This document shows positions 5,287 through 10,923 of a stretch of DNA of 37,380 bases, in pieces. Both the position numbers and the translations under genes were made by a program. Position 1 is the stretch's first letter. Every line of letters begins with the position of its first letter. Source of the DNA: Devosia insulae DS-56 (lineage in GTDB: Bacteria > Pseudomonadota > Alphaproteobacteria > Rhizobiales > Devosiaceae); the NCBI RefSeq assembly GCF_000970465.2, contig NZ_LAJE02000407.1:1-37380 (forward strand), given 5' to 3'. The notes beneath the pieces were generated by a model that searched no databases, had not been told where the DNA came from, and saw only the letters and a list, made by a program, of their open reading frames with translations.

Positions 5287-5901
5287 TTAGAACTTGAAGT
5301 TCAGGCCAACGGTCACGGCGTGCGAGGTCAGGCTGAAGTCGTTGACGAAGCCATAGTCGACCGCACCGTAGTCCGAATAGCGGTACAGCAGGTCGACCGA
5401 GATGTTGTCCGCAACGGCGAACTCGACACCAGCGCCGACGGTCCAGCCGACATGGGTCTCGCTGACGCCGTCGATCTCGCCGCCGGCAACCGCCAGACCG
5501 GCGGTGAGGTACGGCAGGAACGCGCCACCGTCGAAGCCGAGACGGCCACGGAGCGAACCAGTCCAGTCGGCGGAGAACACCTCATCGTCGCTCTCAGCAT
5601 TGGTCCAGGCGATGTCACCCACCACGCCGAGCACGATGCCATCGGCGACGGTGAAGTTGGCGCCGAGATTCACACCGGCGAGCCAGCCGCTGATGTCGAA
5701 CTCATCGTTGTCGTTCTCTTCGGTGAAGGTGCCACCGAGGCCGCCGACGAACGCACCGACATAGAGGCCGTCCCAGTTGCCGCCGGCAACTTCGACAACG
5801 CCCGCTGCGGGTTCGTCAATGATCAGGTCAGCCGCCTGGGCGCCCGACACGAGAGCAAGACCGGCAACGCCGGAAAGCAGAGCAATTACAAAGCGATTCA
5901 T
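5287..5901 (-). CDS. Outer-membrane beta-barrel porin, RopB/Omp25 type (paralogue 1)
   Basis: A 204-residue exported barrel protein. MNRFVIALLSGVAGLALVSGAQA is a signal peptide with cleavage expected after AQA. Family blocks follow in order: GGNWDGLYVGAF (first strand), GVNLGANF, LRGRLGFDGGAFLPYL, HVGWTVGAGVEFAVADN, LLYRYSDYG, and a C-terminal LNFKF whose final Phe is the usual barrel-assembly signal. The same blocks occur in Brucella Omp25 and rhizobial RopB, abundant lipid-anchoring surface proteins that stabilise the envelope. It is the shortest of the five paralogues, with short loops rich in Asp and Glu. AGGAG lies 7 bases before the ATG, and an intrinsic terminator follows closely, so it is probably transcribed alone. 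Confidence 0.9.
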   Translation of the reverse strand: MNRFVIALLSGVAGLALVSGAQAADLIIDEPAAGVVEVAGGNWDGLYVGAFVGGLGGTFTEENDNDEFDISGWLAGVNLGANFTVADGIVLGVVGDIAWTNAESDDEVFSADWTGSLRGRLGFDGGAFLPYLTAGLAVAGGEIDGVSETHVGWTVGAGVEFAVADNISVDLLYRYSDYGAVDYGFVNDFSLTSHAVTVGLNFKF

Positions 5902-6040
5902 CTGAGTCTCCTAATAGTCCGGACGCGGATAACTCCAAATCTCGATCAAGGCGATAGGAATTAGGAGTTCGTCCCGACGGAAGACGCGCGGGTGTCACCT
6001 TGTCGCCACACATGCGGCATCGGAACCTATTGGCAGATAA

Positions 6041-6070
6041 CGAAGAAAGGGCCGCGCGAGGCGGCCCTTT
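6041..6070 (-). terminator. Intrinsic terminator of porin paralogue 2
   Basis: On the minus strand a perfect ten-pair stem AAAGGGCCGC with GCGGCCCTTT closes a five-base loop and runs into CTTCG. It starts 25 bases after the stop at 6096. Its sequence, including flanking bases, closely resembles the hairpin at 7220-7251. Confidence 0.8.
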
Positions 6071-6095
6071 CCGAACGATATGGCAGCGGTTCGGC

Positions 6096-6767
6096 TTAGA
6101 ACTTGAAGTTCACACCGGCAGTGACGGCGTGGGTGCTCAGGTCGATCGTCGCATCGTTGACCGGCAGGTCGTACTCGGCGGTGCCGTAGTCGCTGTAACG
6201 ATACTGCAGGTCGAGCGAGATCTGGTCGGCGACCGCGACTTCGACGCCAGCGCCGGCGGTCCAGCCGAAATGCACCTGCGTGCTGTCCACGCCGTTGTCG
6301 CTGGCAGTCGCGCCGGCAAAGGCGAGACCGGCCGTCAGGTACGGCATGAACGCGCCGCCGTCGAAGCCGGCCTTGCCGCGGAACGAGCCGGTCCAGTTGA
6401 CGTCGTAATCGACACCGTTGCCCGACTCATAGCCGCTGATGCCGGCCCAGGCGATGTCGCCGGCAGCGCCGAGGATGAAGCCCTGCGCCACGGTGAAATT
6501 GGCGCCGAGCGTCGCACCGACCGTCCAACCCGACAGATCGAGTTCGTCGTCGACGAGGAAGAGCGCGTCGGCGGCGTCCTGAGCAGCGGTGCCGAAGCCG
6601 TAGCCGACGAAGCCGCCGATATAGGCGCCATCCCAGCCACCGCCACCACCCATGTCGACAAAGCCCGGCATCGACGGCTGCTGCACCAGCAGGTCAGCGG
6701 CCGAGGCAGCCGAAGCCATGGACAGCACGGCTACGCCCGCCAGCAGAGAGAGAGAAAAACGGTTCAT
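6096..6767 (-). CDS. Outer-membrane beta-barrel porin, RopB/Omp25 type (paralogue 2)
   Basis: A 223-residue precursor. The signal peptide is MNRFSLSLLAGVAVLSMASAASA, then ADLLVQQPSMPGFVDMGGGGG, a Gly-rich stretch longer than in the sister proteins. Barrel blocks include WDGAYIGGFVGYGFG, WTGSFRGKAGFDGGAFMPYL, FGWTAGAGVEVAVADQ, LQYRYSDYG and the C-terminal NFKF. The frame is open 22 codons further upstream, but the ATG at 6767 starts a clean signal peptide and has GGAGG seven bases before it. The GFG and Lys-for-Arg changes make it the most divergent within the conserved core, suggesting an older duplicate. It is flanked by its own terminator and by a 560-base leader region holding a repeat element. 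Confidence 0.9.
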   Translation of the reverse strand: MNRFSLSLLAGVAVLSMASAASAADLLVQQPSMPGFVDMGGGGGWDGAYIGGFVGYGFGTAAQDAADALFLVDDELDLSGWTVGATLGANFTVAQGFILGAAGDIAWAGISGYESGNGVDYDVNWTGSFRGKAGFDGGAFMPYLTAGLAFAGATASDNGVDSTQVHFGWTAGAGVEVAVADQISLDLQYRYSDYGTAEYDLPVNDATIDLSTHAVTAGVNFKF

Positions 6768-6950
6768 GATGTGCCTCCAAGGTACACGAAGGGAACGGAT
6801 TACGTGCCCGCATGAATCGAATCCAAGTTGCAAACAATTCCTTTACGCCGCGGTAACCGTCAGGACTTGGTTAACGAATGGTTTGGACTCGCGCGTACCA
6901 CTGTGAGTTCGGAAACCAACCCGGCCGATGGGCTAGCTCACCGCAGCTTC

Positions 6951-7110
6951 ACCAAACTCGGTGTCATCCCCGCGAAAGGCGGGGAACTCCGTTTGCGATC
7001 GTGCCGCAGGCCAAGAAAACAGAGGTTCCCGCTTTCGCGGGAATGACCCGGTGAGTGGGGCACGACCCTAACTTAGCGCACATGAGCTTTCGCTGGGATG
7101 ACACCGGTGG
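6951..7110. repeat. Composite REP-type palindromic element, copy 1
   Basis: Two inverted modules, GTCATCCCCGCG and CGCGGGAATGAC, each containing a small hairpin of the CCCGCGAAAGCGGG type, are separated by a spacer with ACTCCGTTTGCGATCG and AAACAGAGGTTC. A third module, AGCTTTCGCTGGGATGAC, closes the element. The same order of modules recurs, inverted, at 27143-27310, and shorter versions lie at 14984-15150 and 33914-34045. It fills most of the non-coding gap upstream of porin paralogue 2. No reading frame is supported here. Confidence 0.8.
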
Positions 7111-7219
7111 GGTGGGGATGTTTGCGGTAGCTTCCGCGCTGGCGCCGCTGCGGCGATATCCAATGCTATCGCCGGCCGGCTCGAGGTCCGCTGCGTTCTC
7201 GCGAGGACAACTGCACCCC

Positions 7220-7251
7220 AAAAAGAAAGGGCCGCCCGGAGGCGACCCTTT
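7220..7251 (-). terminator. Intrinsic terminator of a small minus-strand transcript
   Basis: On the minus strand AAAGGGTCGCC pairs with GGCGGCCCTTT (11 pairs, one G-U) around TCCG and is followed by CTTTTT. No long gene precedes it; the only candidate upstream is the mini-ORF at 7332-7403. Confidence 0.85.
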
Positions 7252-7331
7252 CCGATTTCGTGGCTTTCGAAGCAGTCTTTTGCCCACTGAAGGGACGACC
7301 AGCGGTCGCCCCGAGGGCGTGGTGCCTTCGA

Positions 7332-7403
7332 TTAGGCCAGAGGCTGCTCCGAGCTAACGGAGACTCCAGGACCCTTCGAAACCGACGATTTCTGATGAGA
7401 CAC
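7332..7403 (-). CDS. Putative 23-residue protein behind a near-complete Shine-Dalgarno sequence
   Basis: I do not recognise this product. A GTG at 7403 opens a 23-codon frame starting VSHQKSSVSKGPG and ending SEQPLA, rich in Ser and without Cys or Trp. Eight bases before it ends AGGAGG within AAAGGAGGTGGTCC, which can pair at 14 positions (one G-U) with the usual 16S tail GGAUCACCUCCUUU. An in-frame ATG at 7433 would give 33 residues but place that site inside the coding region. Downstream on the same strand come a stable stem-loop (7292-7312) and an intrinsic terminator (7220-7251), so a transcript of roughly 200-270 bases is plausible. It could encode a small protein, or be a structured regulatory RNA whose purine-rich segment mimics a ribosome site. 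Translation is unproven. Confidence 0.4.
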   Translation of the reverse strand: MSHQKSSVSKGPGVSVSSEQPLA

Positions 7404-7561
7404 TTGGACCACCTCCTTTTGCTGGTTGAACATGACAGCGAAGGTGGGACCGATTTGCCGATCTGACAAGGGCAAATGCGCAACAGCTGTGAATGAACGG
7501 TGACAAGGCCCCTGCCCCGGCCCTGCGCGATCTGCCTGCGGAGCCGGTTGCCGGCGCTGGA

Positions 7562-7596
7562 AGCGGACGTTCACACCGGCCCGGCGTATGGGGCTG
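7562..7596 (-). pseudogene. Possible remnant of a porin 3-prime end
   Basis: Read on the minus strand, this patch encodes RAGVNVRF, matching the C-termini of the neighbouring porins (TAGVNFKF, SAGVNFRF), and shares GCCGGTGTGAAC with the end of paralogue 2. The match is short and no stop follows the final Phe directly. It could be the last trace of a sixth porin copy deleted between paralogues 2 and 3, or chance. Confidence 0.25.
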
Positions 7597-7614
7597 CACG
7601 AGATCCCAAGCACT

Positions 7615-7644
7615 GACCCCGCCACGGCGGAGCCGGGCGGGGTC
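7615..7644 (-). terminator. Hairpin after porin paralogue 3
   Basis: A perfect nine-pair stem GACCCCGCC with GGCGGGGTC lies 29 bases after the stop at 7674. Unlike the hairpins of paralogues 4 and 5, with which it shares its core, no T-run follows it on the minus strand, so read-through toward the mini-ORF at 7403 is possible. Confidence 0.55.
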
Positions 7645-7673
7645 GAATGGCAGGCAGCCGAAGCTGGCGGCGA

Positions 7674-8342
7674 TCAGAACCGGAAGTTAACGCCAGCCGA
7701 GATCGTGTGGGTGGTGAGACCCAGATCAGTATCGACGTCGAGGGCGTAAGTCTTCGAGCCGTAATCGCTGTAGCGATACAGCACGTCGATCGACACGTTG
7801 TCGGCGACAGCGAACTCCACACCGGCACCAACGGTCCAGCCGATATGAGTCTGATCATCCGAGATGTCGAGATCGGTGTCGGTGGCGGTGGCGCCAGCAA
7901 AGGCCACACCGGCGGTCAGGTACGGCAGGAAGGCGCCGCCATCGAAGCCGAGACGGCCGCGAATGCTGCCGAGCCAGTTCACGTCATAGTCGACCAGGTC
8001 GACGGCGTCGCTGCCGCCGATGTCGGACCAGGCGATATCAGCAACGATACCGGCGACGATGGCTTCCGACACGGTGAAGTTGGCGCCCGCGGCAACGCCG
8101 ACCTGCCAACCGGTCAGATCGTACTCGGTGTCGACGACGTTGAAGTAGCCGTCATCGTCGTTGAGCGTGCCCCAACCGTAGCCGGCGAAGGCGCCGACAT
8201 ACACGCCGTCCCAGTTACCGCCGACGTCGACGATACCAACCGGGGGAGCTGGTTCGCTGATGATGAGATCGGCCGCCTGGACCGAGGAGATGAAGCTCAG
8301 AGCGGCAACGCCGGCGAGCAGGGAAACGGCAAGACGATTCAT
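7674..8342 (-). CDS. Outer-membrane beta-barrel porin, RopB/Omp25 type (paralogue 3)
   Basis: A 222-residue precursor. The signal peptide MNRLAVSLLAGVAALSFISSVQA is followed by ADLIISEPAPPVGIVDVGG. Conserved barrel blocks are WDGVYVGAFAGYGWG, WQVGVAAGANFTVSEAIVAG, LGSIRGRLGFDGGAFLPYL, IGWTVGAGVEFAVADNVS and YRYSDYGSKTYAL, with C-terminal FRF. It shares the SEAIVAGIVADIAWSD segment with paralogue 4, so these two are the most recent duplicates. The frame extends seven codons upstream; the ATG at 8342 is chosen for the signal peptide and for CTGGAGG nine bases ahead. Its upstream region holds a perfect 16-base palindrome. Confidence 0.9.
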   Translation of the reverse strand: MNRLAVSLLAGVAALSFISSVQAADLIISEPAPPVGIVDVGGNWDGVYVGAFAGYGWGTLNDDDGYFNVVDTEYDLTGWQVGVAAGANFTVSEAIVAGIVADIAWSDIGGSDAVDLVDYDVNWLGSIRGRLGFDGGAFLPYLTAGVAFAGATATDTDLDISDDQTHIGWTVGAGVEFAVADNVSIDVLYRYSDYGSKTYALDVDTDLGLTTHTISAGVNFRF

Positions 8343-8505
8343 TGGATGGCCTCCAGAAAGCAACGGCTACAAGATACGCACGTTGGTGTGAAAGAAAACC
8401 CACCCGCACCAGCAACGCACAGCTTAGCCGCAAAGTGTCACCCTCAGGACACACACGTGACCTAGGTTCTTAAGAATGTTGCAAATCTCTATTTAGTCAC
8501 AATTG

Positions 8506-8521
8506 CGCCACGTACGTGGCG
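8506..8521. promoter_or_regulatory. Perfect 16-base palindrome upstream of porin paralogue 3
   Basis: CGCCACGTACGTGGCG is a perfect palindrome about 165 bases ahead of the porin start at 8342 and downstream of the previous gene's terminator on the same strand. No gene covers it. It could be an operator for a dimeric regulator; no family is assigned. Confidence 0.35.
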
Positions 8522-8569
8522 ATGCCGGGCGATGCTGTGCGATACCGTACCAAGTAACGCCAGGTCGTG

Positions 8570-8608
8570 GCAAAATCAAACCCCGCCGCGGCTTGCGCCG
8601 GGCGGGGT
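8570..8608 (-). terminator. Intrinsic terminator of porin paralogue 4
   Basis: On the minus strand ACCCCGCC pairs with GGCGGGGT, with an inner GGC/GCC pairing, followed by TTTGATTTTG. It starts 54 bases after the stop at 8663. The core is almost identical to the hairpin at 9505-9548. Confidence 0.85.
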
Positions 8609-8662
8609 CGATTTAGACAACCGTTCAGCCACTGAAACTATTCAGCCAGCTGAAGGCGGAAA

Positions 8663-9337
8663 TCAGAAGCGGAAGTTCACGCCGGCGGTGACCGCATGCG
8701 AGGTCAGGCTGTAGTCGGTCGGAGCTGCCAGATCGTAGGTCTTCGAACCGAAATCCGAATAACGGTACTGCAGGTCGAGCGACACGTTGTCGGCCACGGC
8801 GAACTCCACGCCGGCGCCGAGGGTCCAGCCGATGTGGGTCTGGGTGTCTTCAAACACGCCAGCGTTGTCGGTCAGCGTGTTGTTCGCGAAGGCGAGACCG
8901 CCCGTCACGTACGGAAGGAAGGCGCCGCCGTCAAAGCCGATACGGCCACGCAGGCTACCCTGCCAGTCGGTGTTCGACTCGAGGTCGCCACCGACGAAGT
9001 CGCCGCCGAGGTCGGACCAGGCGATATCGGCCACGAGCCCGGCAACGATGGCTTCGGAGACGGTGAAGTTCACGCCGGCGGCAACGCCGACCTGCCAACC
9101 GGTGGCATCGTACTCGGTGCCGGCGACGTCACCGAGATAGCCGTCCTCGGTGGTCAGGGTGCCCCAGCCGTAGCCAGCGAAAGCGCCGACGAAGACGCCA
9201 TCCCAGTTGCCACCAGCGGGAGTGACGTAGCCGACCGCCGGAGCGGGCTCGGAAATGATCAGGTCAGCGGCGAAGGCCGAGGACATCACGGAGACGCCAG
9301 CCACACCGGCCAGCAGAGCGATTGCAAAACGATTCAT
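8663..9337 (-). CDS. Outer-membrane beta-barrel porin, RopB/Omp25 type (paralogue 4)
   Basis: A 224-residue precursor with signal peptide MNRFAIALLAGVAGVSVMSS, cleaved after AFA. Blocks are GGNWDGVFVGAFAGYGWG, WQVGVAAGVNFTVSEAIVAG, WQGSLRGRIGFDGGAFLPYV, IGWTLGAGVEFAVADNVS, LQYRYSDFGSKTYDL and C-terminal VNFRF. Differences from paralogue 3 are concentrated in the predicted surface loops (for example GYLGDVAGTEYD and the stretch around NNTLTDNAGVF), the pattern expected if exposed loops diverge while the barrel is kept. AGGAG lies ten bases before the ATG at 9337. A strong terminator follows, so it is probably monocistronic. Confidence 0.9.
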   Translation of the reverse strand: MNRFAIALLAGVAGVSVMSSAFAADLIISEPAPAVGYVTPAGGNWDGVFVGAFAGYGWGTLTTEDGYLGDVAGTEYDATGWQVGVAAGVNFTVSEAIVAGLVADIAWSDLGGDFVGGDLESNTDWQGSLRGRIGFDGGAFLPYVTGGLAFANNTLTDNAGVFEDTQTHIGWTLGAGVEFAVADNVSLDLQYRYSDFGSKTYDLAAPTDYSLTSHAVTAGVNFRF

Positions 9338-9504
9338 TTAGTCAACTCCTAGAGAGAGGGCCCTCACGTAGCCCCTGTCGCGGGCAAAAGCGACCTCACG
9401 TGCTAACAAACTGTTCACGCGCCGCCCCTCCAGAAGAGAGTCGTGCCATTAGCGCCACACCTGTTTCTGGCATGGCAATTTCAAGGCACAACTGGGGAAT
9501 TTTC

Positions 9505-9548
9505 GAGGAAAAGAGAACCCCGCCGCGGCTCGCGCCGGGCGGGGTTCT
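9505..9548 (-). terminator. Intrinsic terminator of porin paralogue 5
   Basis: On the minus strand AGAACCCCGCC pairs with GGCGGGGTTCT (11 pairs) and is followed by CTTTTCC. It lies 22 bases after the stop at 9571. Confidence 0.85.
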
Positions 9549-9570
9549 GATTTCTAGCAGTGAAACTGGC

Positions 9571-10251
9571 TTAGAAGTTCCAGTGCAGACCGGCGGTGAC
9601 CGTGTGCGTAGTCAGGTCGATGGTCGGGTTGATGCCCGGGCCGGACCAGTCGTACACCTGCTCGCCAAGATCCGAATAGCGGTACTCGAGGTTGACCGAG
9701 AGCTCTTCGGTGGCGGCGAACTCGACGCCCGCGCCGACCGTCCAACCGACATGGGTCGCGCTGGCTTCGTTGTCGACGCCAGCCGAGCTGGTGCGCACTG
9801 CGTGGGCAAAGGCAAGACCACCAGTCAGGTACGGCATGAAGGCGCCGCCATCAAAGCCGACCTTACCGCGCAACGAACCCTGCCAGTCGATGGTGTGGGT
9901 GGTGTCGAAGGCAAAGGCACCATCGTCGTCGCCAGTGATATCCGACCAGGCGATGTCACCAACCACGCCGAGCACGATACCGCCATCGAGCGTGAAGTTC
10001 GCACCGACGTCGACACCGATCAGCCAGCCGGCCAGGTCGAGGTCGTTGTTCGGCGGATTGGCGATGTGGTCGGCATGCGCCCAGCCACCGCCGACGAACA
10101 CGCCGATATAAGCGCCGTCCCAGTTGCCGCCGACGTCCACGACGCCCATCGGCGCCGGCTCGTCCATAATGATCAGATCCGCGGCGTAGGCCGAGGACAT
10201 CAGACCAGCAGCGGCCACGGTGGCCAGCAGAATAGTTGTGATGTGCTTCAT
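9571..10251 (-). CDS. Outer-membrane beta-barrel porin, RopB/Omp25 type (paralogue 5)
   Basis: A 226-residue precursor and the first gene of the array in transcription order. Its signal peptide, MKHITTILLATVAAAGLMSS then AYA, differs from the MNRF-type leader of the other four. Blocks are VDVGGNWDGAYIGVFVGGGW, LIGVDVGANFTLDGGIVLG, WQGSLRGKVGFDGGAFMPYL, HVGWTVGAGVEFAATEELS, LEYRYSDLG and C-terminal LHWNF, where the usual VNFRF is changed but the final Phe kept. It has His residues in the first loop (WAHADHIANPP) not seen in the others. The frame is open 51 codons upstream; the ATG at 10251 is chosen for the signal peptide and GGAGGG eight bases ahead. Confidence 0.9.
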   Translation of the reverse strand: MKHITTILLATVAAAGLMSSAYAADLIIMDEPAPMGVVDVGGNWDGAYIGVFVGGGWAHADHIANPPNNDLDLAGWLIGVDVGANFTLDGGIVLGVVGDIAWSDITGDDDGAFAFDTTHTIDWQGSLRGKVGFDGGAFMPYLTGGLAFAHAVRTSSAGVDNEASATHVGWTVGAGVEFAATEELSVNLEYRYSDLGEQVYDWSGPGINPTIDLTTHTVTAGLHWNF

Positions 10252-10632
10252 GGTTGCCCTCCAATAGGTCCACTGCACCTTCCCACGGAATGTGGCAGGA
10301 ATCGAGCCCCTCAAGGGCAACAATTGAGACTCTAGAAGCAAGTGTTGCACCGTTGCATCGGACTCTGAGCGGCATCGCGTGAGAGTTTTTACAGGGCACA
10401 TCATAGGGTTAGCAGTGTTGCCTAACGATTTCTGCGTAGCAGCTCACAGCGCCGTGATGGGCGCGGGAATTTTGTGGCAAAGCCAAGACAATTGCTTTCG
10501 AAACGCCAACGACTCTATTCGGTGAGCCAAATCTGTTCACATGACAACGATCAACAGATGATCATCCGGCACCGACTGATTCCGCGCCTTGCACGCTCAT
10601 GGGGGACTTGCAGGTTCACGGCGAGGAGGCTG
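10252..10632. other. Non-coding gap before the porin array
   Basis: About 380 bases lie between the first porin start and the terminator of the tRNA genes. I see no supported gene; the region should contain the promoter of porin paralogue 5. An AT-richer stretch around 10385-10560 is the only visible feature. Confidence 0.5.
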
Positions 10633-10678: not shown

Positions 10679-10753
10679 TGGTGGGTGTGACAGGGATTGA
10701 ACCTGTGACCCCCGCCGTGTGAAGGCGATGCTCTCCCGCTGAGCTACACACCC
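10679..10753 (-). tRNA. tRNA-Val, anticodon CAC
   Basis: On the minus strand the 75-base sequence folds as a cloverleaf: acceptor GGGTGTG with CACACCC, D arm GCTC/GAGC, anticodon stem TCGCC/GGCGG around loop TTCACAC (anticodon CAC, reading GUG) and a T arm with GTTCAATCC. Discriminator A and CCA are encoded. Confidence 0.95.
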
Positions 10754-10848: not shown

Positions 10849-10923
10849 TGGTGGGTGTAACAGGGATTGAACCTGTGACCCCTACCATGTCAAGGTAGTG
10901 CTCTCCCGCTGAGCTATACACCC
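10849..10923 (-). tRNA. tRNA-Val, anticodon GAC
   Basis: On the minus strand a 75-base cloverleaf with acceptor GGGTGTA/TACACCC, anticodon stem CTACC/GGTAG around loop TTGACAT (anticodon GAC, reading GUC and GUU) and encoded CCA. It lies 95 bases upstream of the tRNA-Val(CAC) gene in the same orientation; the T arms are identical, so one is probably a duplicate of the other. Confidence 0.95.

Follow-up and report, generated by a model that had tools for sequence, protein, structure and literature searches.

The stretch of DNA analysed here, referred to as the window, comprises 37,380 nucleotides of the genome of Devosia insulae DS-56 and contains a row of five minus-strand ORFs spanning positions 5287-10404 (5287-5901, 6096-6767, 7674-8363, 8663-9337, and 9571-10404), all of which have hits to the Pfam family OMP_b-brl (E 2e-17 to 4e-19) and are outer-membrane beta-barrel protein (OMP) genes. 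An RNA gene on the minus strand lies between the second and the third of these ORFs, and its features are listed in Table 1. The Shine-Dalgarno sequence (SD), the GTG frame, the stem-loop and the terminator had been proposed in the initial annotation for the minus strand of 7220-7500, and all of them were found where it had placed them; taken alone, this anatomy of the element is highly probable. Regarding other features of the neighborhood, two tRNA-Val genes (anticodons CAC and GAC) lie close together on the minus strand at 10679-10753 and 10849-10923, and an imperfect inverted repeat formed by CCCCGCGAAAGGCGGGGAAC and GTTCCCGCTTTCGCGGG is located at 6960-7060, downstream of the RNA gene. 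A similarity of 88-91% to the terminator part of the element was found at 6043-6074, behind the OMP gene at 6096-6767, and at two further loci of the same genome (L002 and L004).

Table 1. Features of the RNA gene and its predicted promoter, with positions in the window.
Feature	Position	Strand	Remarks
Predicted sigma-70-like promoter	7440..7470	-	-35 CTTGTC at 7465-7470; -10-like CCACCTTC at 7440-7447 (window sequence)
CAAC box near predicted transcript 5' end	7425..7428	-	93-99% per base in 153 sequences, partly by selection since these were anchored on the CAAC box
Extended SD AAAGGAGGTGGTCC	7406..7419	-	14 nt pair with the 16S tail, one of them as G-U
ORF, GTG start (7403-7401), 23 codons (VSHQKSSVSKGPGVSVSSEQPLA), TAA stop	7332..7403	-	
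P1 5' strand CGGUUUCG, within ORF, candidate in the window genus	7377..7384	-	complements 7253-7260, one G-U
H2 hairpin CGGAG-CAGC-CUCUG in ORF, immediately 5' of stop	7338..7351	-	covariation
H3 stem-loop GGGCGACCGCTGGTCGTCCC	7292..7311	-	region variable among relatives (by eye)
P1 3' strand CGAAAUCG, directly 5' of terminator, candidate	7253..7260	-	
Intrinsic terminator, stem AAAGGGTCGCC/GGGCGGCCCTTT	7220..7251	-	stem at 7226-7251, then T-rich tail

Regarding transcription of the element, the consensus of 153 upstream regions has, counted from the CAAC box, (C/T)TTG around positions -41 to -38 and C(A/C)A..TT around -18 to -12, and the letters of the window and of close relatives suggest a predicted promoter with a putative transcription start near 7433. 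An upstream hairpin had been suggested to control the element. The inverted repeat TTTGCC/GGCAAA is present, with its arms at 7471-7476 and 7454-7459, but it lies across the -35 sequence of the predicted promoter and is poorly conserved among eight congeneric loci, being intact in one (L007), one pair shorter and thus nearly intact in a second (L006), altered in one arm in L005 and L010, and not seen in L008, L009, L013, and L014; on both grounds it was rejected as a control element.

The succession of short ORF and terminator, with the OMP gene of 6096-6767 on the same strand, together with the serine-rich ORF of the window (7 of 23 codons), would fit a leader peptide or attenuator acting on a downstream gene, here this OMP gene. 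However, the OMP gene starts about 450 nt past the terminator, two further lineages have 4 and 5 serines among 23 residues (16.9% on average over the 160 representatives introduced below), and no widely shared neighbor gene was found among 91 loci with long flanks, the largest neighbor cluster comprising 18 of the 91 representatives and lying on the upstream side. With no conserved downstream gene, the cis leader was rejected and is regarded as highly improbable. The upstream ORF common to these 18 loci (L101, L137, L168, L212, and others) may by its sequence be an acetyl-CoA synthetase, and AMP-binding and ACAS_N domains were detected beside the element in L133.

The SD pairs with the 16S rRNA tail GGAUCACCUCCUUU over 14 consecutive positions including one G-U pair, as stated in the initial annotation and confirmed on the sequence. 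The tail used is contained in an oligonucleotide printed in a paper on Sinorhizobium meliloti (PMC6943124); pattern searches of the window genome and five congeners found no 16S tail of their own. Computed for 16 nt around the SD and a tail of 17 nt, the duplex has an energy of -25.6 kcal/mol, compared with -9.2 for a plain AGGAGG, and the consensus form of the SD reaches -29.6 kcal/mol with the 16S tail. The pattern AGGAGGTGRTCCAN{0,1}RTG has a single match in the 5.75-Mb genome, and its reversed control has none. A variant SD with one extra A, GAAAGGAAGGTGATCC, for which the computed duplex with the 16S tail is still -25.8 kcal/mol, was observed in L114, L118, L120, L341, and L351-L380 (part of the family of genome G103). 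One homolog (L011) has a weaker SD (AAGGAGGTGATTC) and falls outside the element set described next, and another (L012) is cut by a contig end.

Elements were retained if they had an SD-like string, a start codon 1-2 nt further on and AAC or ACA upstream, irrespective of frame length, and pattern matches heading long ORFs were dropped. This gave 276 unique elements, in 274 of which a terminator-like hairpin is present on the 3' side (fold below -12 kcal/mol before a T-run, a lenient rule), and 160 representatives were then taken from the 274; conservation of the SD in these sets is by construction, since the loci were chosen on the SD, the start and the upstream AAC or ACA. In the 274 terminator-bearing elements frame 0 comprises 14-35 codons, and no other entry was flagged as exceeding 40 codons. 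Among the representatives, 160 of 160 have frames of 14-35 codons (mean 24.2, sd 2.8), while the share expected from dinucleotide shuffles is 26%, and the frames read at +1 and +2 reach 31% and 18%, respectively; the difference from the shuffles shows that the short frame is kept. The combination of SD, start, short frame and terminator that the initial annotation had described at this single locus recurs as a unit in relatives. In one locus, L285, a base inserted after the GTG shifts the frame of nearly the whole ORF, the bases stay aligned, and the frame closes after 24 codons.

Transcription and translation are published for probable relatives of the element. In Mesorhizobium huakuii, MH_s33, annotated as RF01867/CC2171, is a 215-nt transcript detected by RNA-seq, and it was not among the Northern-tested transcripts found in the available text of that survey (PMC5596092). 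In S. meliloti, SEP1 is reported as the product of a novel sORF, 23 aa long with a pI of 4.18 and conserved in Rhizobiaceae. Its reported translation efficiency was the highest among 54 candidates, and one PSM and a Western signal of the tagged form were obtained (PMC10117765). The three genomes nearest to S. meliloti pSymB (91-92% over a 2.5-kb probe; L364, L365, and L373) encode MSNEISDLVMDMGEVKESRQPSA, which has the published SEP1 values of 23 aa and pI 4.18; the window peptide is also 23 aa long, with a pI of 8.37. From this agreement in length and pI, and not from the sequence of SEP1, we infer that SEP1 is the Sinorhizobium copy of the element, although in the available text (PMC10117765) it is presented as a small protein without a link to CC2171. 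On the basis of frame closure and of this probable identity, the ORF is very probably translated.

Regarding selection on the peptide, changes were counted on minimum spanning trees of the ORFs, including, for this test only, 30 loci of a genus taken for Sinorhizobium because a piece of S. meliloti pSymB has matches in 33 of its 33 genomes. Whole ORFs had 64 synonymous and 130 nonsynonymous changes (omega 0.76, p 0.08), an omega which is not distinguished from that of the same bases read in frame +1 (0.85; frame +2 gave 4.56 on 12 changes), and codon positions 1, 2, and 3 had 87, 85, and 85 changes, respectively. In the core of the ORF, i.e., without the first four and last seven codons, 59 synonymous and 153 nonsynonymous changes were counted (omega 1.01, p 1.0). 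Omega was 0.48 (p 0.06) in the Sinorhizobium-like genus and 0.52 (p 0.20) in the window genus, both on few changes, and 0.73 (p 0.14) in a subset of Mesorhizobium and others; the low values of the whole ORFs and of the small subsets may be due in part to the RNA hairpin H2. As a control, 22-codon segments of neighboring genes from seven clusters with a Pfam hit (14 clusters were found and 10 scanned) were treated by the same method, giving omega 0.02-0.28 in 42 of 51 segments, while the other nine, in two of the seven clusters, had omega above 2, which is ascribed to upstream stretches that are non-coding in that frame. Compared with these controls, the omega of 1.01 means that the core of the peptide is without detectable purifying selection.

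The initial annotation had considered a tiny, highly translated protein as one of two possible products. A functional 23-residue peptide that evolves fast and has lineage-specific targets would be consistent with translation in the probable relatives, with the low omega values of the Sinorhizobium-like genus and the window genus, and with the similarity of the peptides within genera. It is hard to reconcile with the equal rates at the three codon positions and the neutral-looking core, and with L285, which reads nearly the whole ORF in another frame. The C-terminal EQPL of the window peptide is likewise no peptide motif, since nearly the same bases are read in other frames as RSSL (L179) and WSNLW (L045), and it was rejected as such, being the H2 RNA hairpin read in different frames. 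The charge of the peptide is not kept either, the pI of 8.37 in the window contrasting with 4.18 in the Sinorhizobium-like copies and 5.71 in Mesorhizobium. Given the core, the hairpin and the frameshift, a conserved functional protein is thus not supported, and a tiny protein gene in general is considered improbable. By eye, codons of the WILAS type resemble the 16S tail.

Regarding RNA structure, two alignments were chosen from the 160 representatives, A1 with 45 sequences (group A) and A2 with 40 sequences (group B), and two helices covary. In A1, the double changes reported by RNAalifold on the seven pairs of H2 were 19, 18, 14, 2, 7, 9, and 0, so that six of seven pairs changed on both sides, with 92.1% of cells paired in the 45 sequences. 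In P1, the early ORF pairs with the pre-terminator segment, as GUGAG/CUCAC or AUGAG/CUCAU in group A and as CAUUGUC/GACAAUG in group B. Taken jointly in A1, H2 and P1 have 84.5% of cells paired compared with 43-54% when slid, 122 cells changed on both sides compared with 53 in shuffles, a covariation score of 0.519 compared with 0.272 (shuffled) and at most 0.185 (slid), and 13 pairs with a double change compared with 9.9, a number reached by 8 of 500 shuffles; related sequences inflate the shuffle controls of this test, and the tests on the two helices are not independent because P1 was picked by eye and H2 by RNAalifold on the same sequences. Over the 160 representatives, the P1 duplex has an energy of -15.0 kcal/mol, a value reached by 0 of 2000 permutations of the partners, which give -10.6; other segments of the same RNA give -11.3, and the own partner is in the best tenth for 49% of the representatives. 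RNAalifold recovered P1 in neither A1 nor A2; its A1 structure has H2 along with a pairing between the SD and the 3' arm of the terminator, and its A2 structure has the terminator and a stem of three pairs in the SD. The P1 candidate of the window, an 8-bp complement, has a register unlike the aligned one, and the best computed P1 duplex for the window copy is in yet another register, so that P1 of the window is uncertain.

Covarying helices across the ORF would also fit the main rival explanation, an sRNA that regulates by base pairing or acts as a sponge of anti-SD sRNAs. Its ORF would be a switch, translation opening P1 and H2 and thereby exposing or hiding pairing sites. The complementarity of the ORF to the SD exceeds that of shuffles (two groups, of 119 and 41, with a mean z of -1.19 and -1.10), and anti-SD sRNAs are known from the class, e.g., SisA-D of Caulobacter, which are sponged by CrfA (PMC12559287). 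However, the accessibility of the SD core is hardly higher than in shuffled downstream contexts (0.287 compared with 0.266 in 80 of the 160 representatives), and beyond SD, start, H2, P1, and terminator no long seed-like conserved stretch was seen by eye. Furthermore, the complementarity of the SD crosses the GGAUC part of the 16S tail, a part which the anti-SD loops CCUCCUCCC and TTCCTCCTAA, as printed in the available texts, do not have. Such a switchable sRNA or sponge is therefore judged unlikely. Sequestration of the SD by the ORF is itself regarded as weak, since the extra complementarity is present but the SD is roughly as accessible as in shuffled contexts.

An Rfam scan of 871 bases matched the element to RF01867 (CC2171, Caulobacter sRNA) with 30 bits (E 2.3e-4), short of the gathering score of 75 bits, and a gathering-level scan of the whole window returned two tRNAs only. 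CC2171 reportedly goes back to Landt et al. in 2008. The alignment spans the CAAC box, the SD, the start, UCUCA and the terminator, all of which are present in the window copy, while the pairs of the model's helix between early ORF and pre-terminator segment are marked as non-standard in the window alignment. Judged from its sequence, the element is thus a divergent relative of RF01867, and the expectation of the initial annotation that it would be wholly new is not supported. The two share the 5' motif CAAC..AAAGGAGGTGRTCCA..GTGTCTCA and the terminator. The helix of the model may be matched by P1, and the window copy differs in the sequence and register of P1 and in an extra base before the GTG. 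In print, CC2171 was found as a name only, in Rfam 15 and in the M. huakuii survey (PMC5596092); Rfam lists the family as an sRNA, and the available text of Rfam and of the CC2171 literature found makes no mention of an ORF.

Regarding distribution, RF01867 matched 61 of 289 genomes of a class sample at E<=0.001, while 9 of 289 scored above the gathering threshold; among 14 named control genomes Caulobacter vibrioides was the sole match at E<=0.001. The 75-bit gathering score hides most of the family (L064-L093). By DNA search, 26 of 61 genomes match, including that of the window, and 18 of 18 congeners had some match, those of one congener (G013) both being confined to the terminator part. 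A pattern of SD and start was present in 144 of 397 genomes of the order and its reversed control in four genomes (table count), with decoys among the former, as 7 of 30 loci fetched head frames open for at least 133 codons. In the family of genome G103, 25 of 41 genomes matched RF01867 at E<=0.001 (own count) and 34 of 41 at E<=1, a limit so loose that 6 of the 14 control genomes match as well, and 26 of 30 loci fetched from this family carry the unit, the remaining four carrying it with an altered SD. In the Sinorhizobium-like genus, the element pattern occurs once in 32 of 33 genomes. A strict pattern, which does not catch the window copy (one extra base before the GTG), was present in 72 of 135 alphaproteobacterial genomes and in 0 of 263 other genomes of Pseudomonadota (table count). 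Hosts among the matches listed include Mesorhizobium, Aureimonas, Hoeflea, Phyllobacterium, Nitratireductor, Albimonas, and Magnetovibrio.

The near-neutral peptide could also be accounted for by an ordinary small mRNA with a strong ribosome site and a dispensable product, a relic or noise. Class-wide recurrence, covarying structure and the closure of 160 of 160 frames need selection, and this explanation is therefore disfavored, its probability being very low.

The reading to which we give about an even chance is that the gene encodes a structured, ribosome-engaged sRNA with a disposable product, which probably captures or senses ribosomes. It would be a free-standing sRNA gene of a CC2171-related family spread across Alphaproteobacteria, from which a sigma-70-like promoter would drive a transcript of about 210 nt, with the CAAC box, an SD matching almost the entire free 3' tail of 16S rRNA, and the start codon at its 5' end. 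Ribosomes would translate 14-35 codons (23 in the window) through a folded RNA in which P1 would tie the early ORF to the pre-terminator segment and H2 would sit at the stop codon. Selection would maintain the SD, the start, the early stop and both helices and not the peptide, and, this being so, the translation event or the occupancy by the ribosome would itself be the functional act. Translation would have to open P1 and H2, and P1 would reach into the region occupied by the 30S subunit. The RNA would thus capture ribosomes with exceptional affinity, its folded or translated state would follow ribosome availability, and its stability or activity would follow that state.

Capture of ribosomes with a change of state is favored because the most conserved element matches the 16S tail at the start codon and because translation would open P1 and H2. 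Against it, a strong SD could serve high expression alone, the SD core is about as accessible as in shuffled contexts, and the SD pairs inside the ORF when the window RNA is folded without constraints. The element may also be the ribosome-titrating RNA that the initial annotation suggested as the other possible product. More tentatively, and with some doubt, the element may belong to a dedicated, class-wide type of ribosome-capture RNA, with 14-15 bp to the free 16S tail and a peptide-neutral "runway" ORF, that would sense or buffer the free 30S pool. We know of no bacterial ribosome-capture RNA class of such a kind, and none was found in the open-licence literature searched.

Known systems resemble the ribosome-capturing RNA proposed here in part. 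The anti-SD sRNAs, as described in the available texts (SisA-D/CrfA, PMC12559287; sRNAs with a CCUCCUCCC loop, PMC3927594), likewise act via complementarity between SD and anti-SD, but they carry the anti-SD side, whereas the window RNA carries the SD side, placed before a start codon and covering the whole 16S tail. Similarly, rnTrpL/peTrpL of S. meliloti is a dual-function sRNA with a short translated ORF (PMC7298713, PMC10117765); it is described there as a leaderless attenuator whose peptide acts in trans, whereas in the window RNA a long SD leads and the peptide drifts. An account of the RNA as a translated, peptide-neutral, class-wide element was not recognized in the open-licence literature searched.

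Three loose ends, namely CC2171, an sRNA family without a stated function in the literature found, the element of the window and, probably, SEP1, are joined as one RNA occurring over much of a bacterial class. Its long SD is striking in a class whose model Caulobacter mostly starts genes without one (75.4% of genes, PMC4117421). Translation seems to be selected while the peptide is not, which matters for surveys that score sORFs from Ribo-seq as proteins. If ribosome capture is true, the RNA would represent a new way to gauge or buffer the supply of ribosomes.
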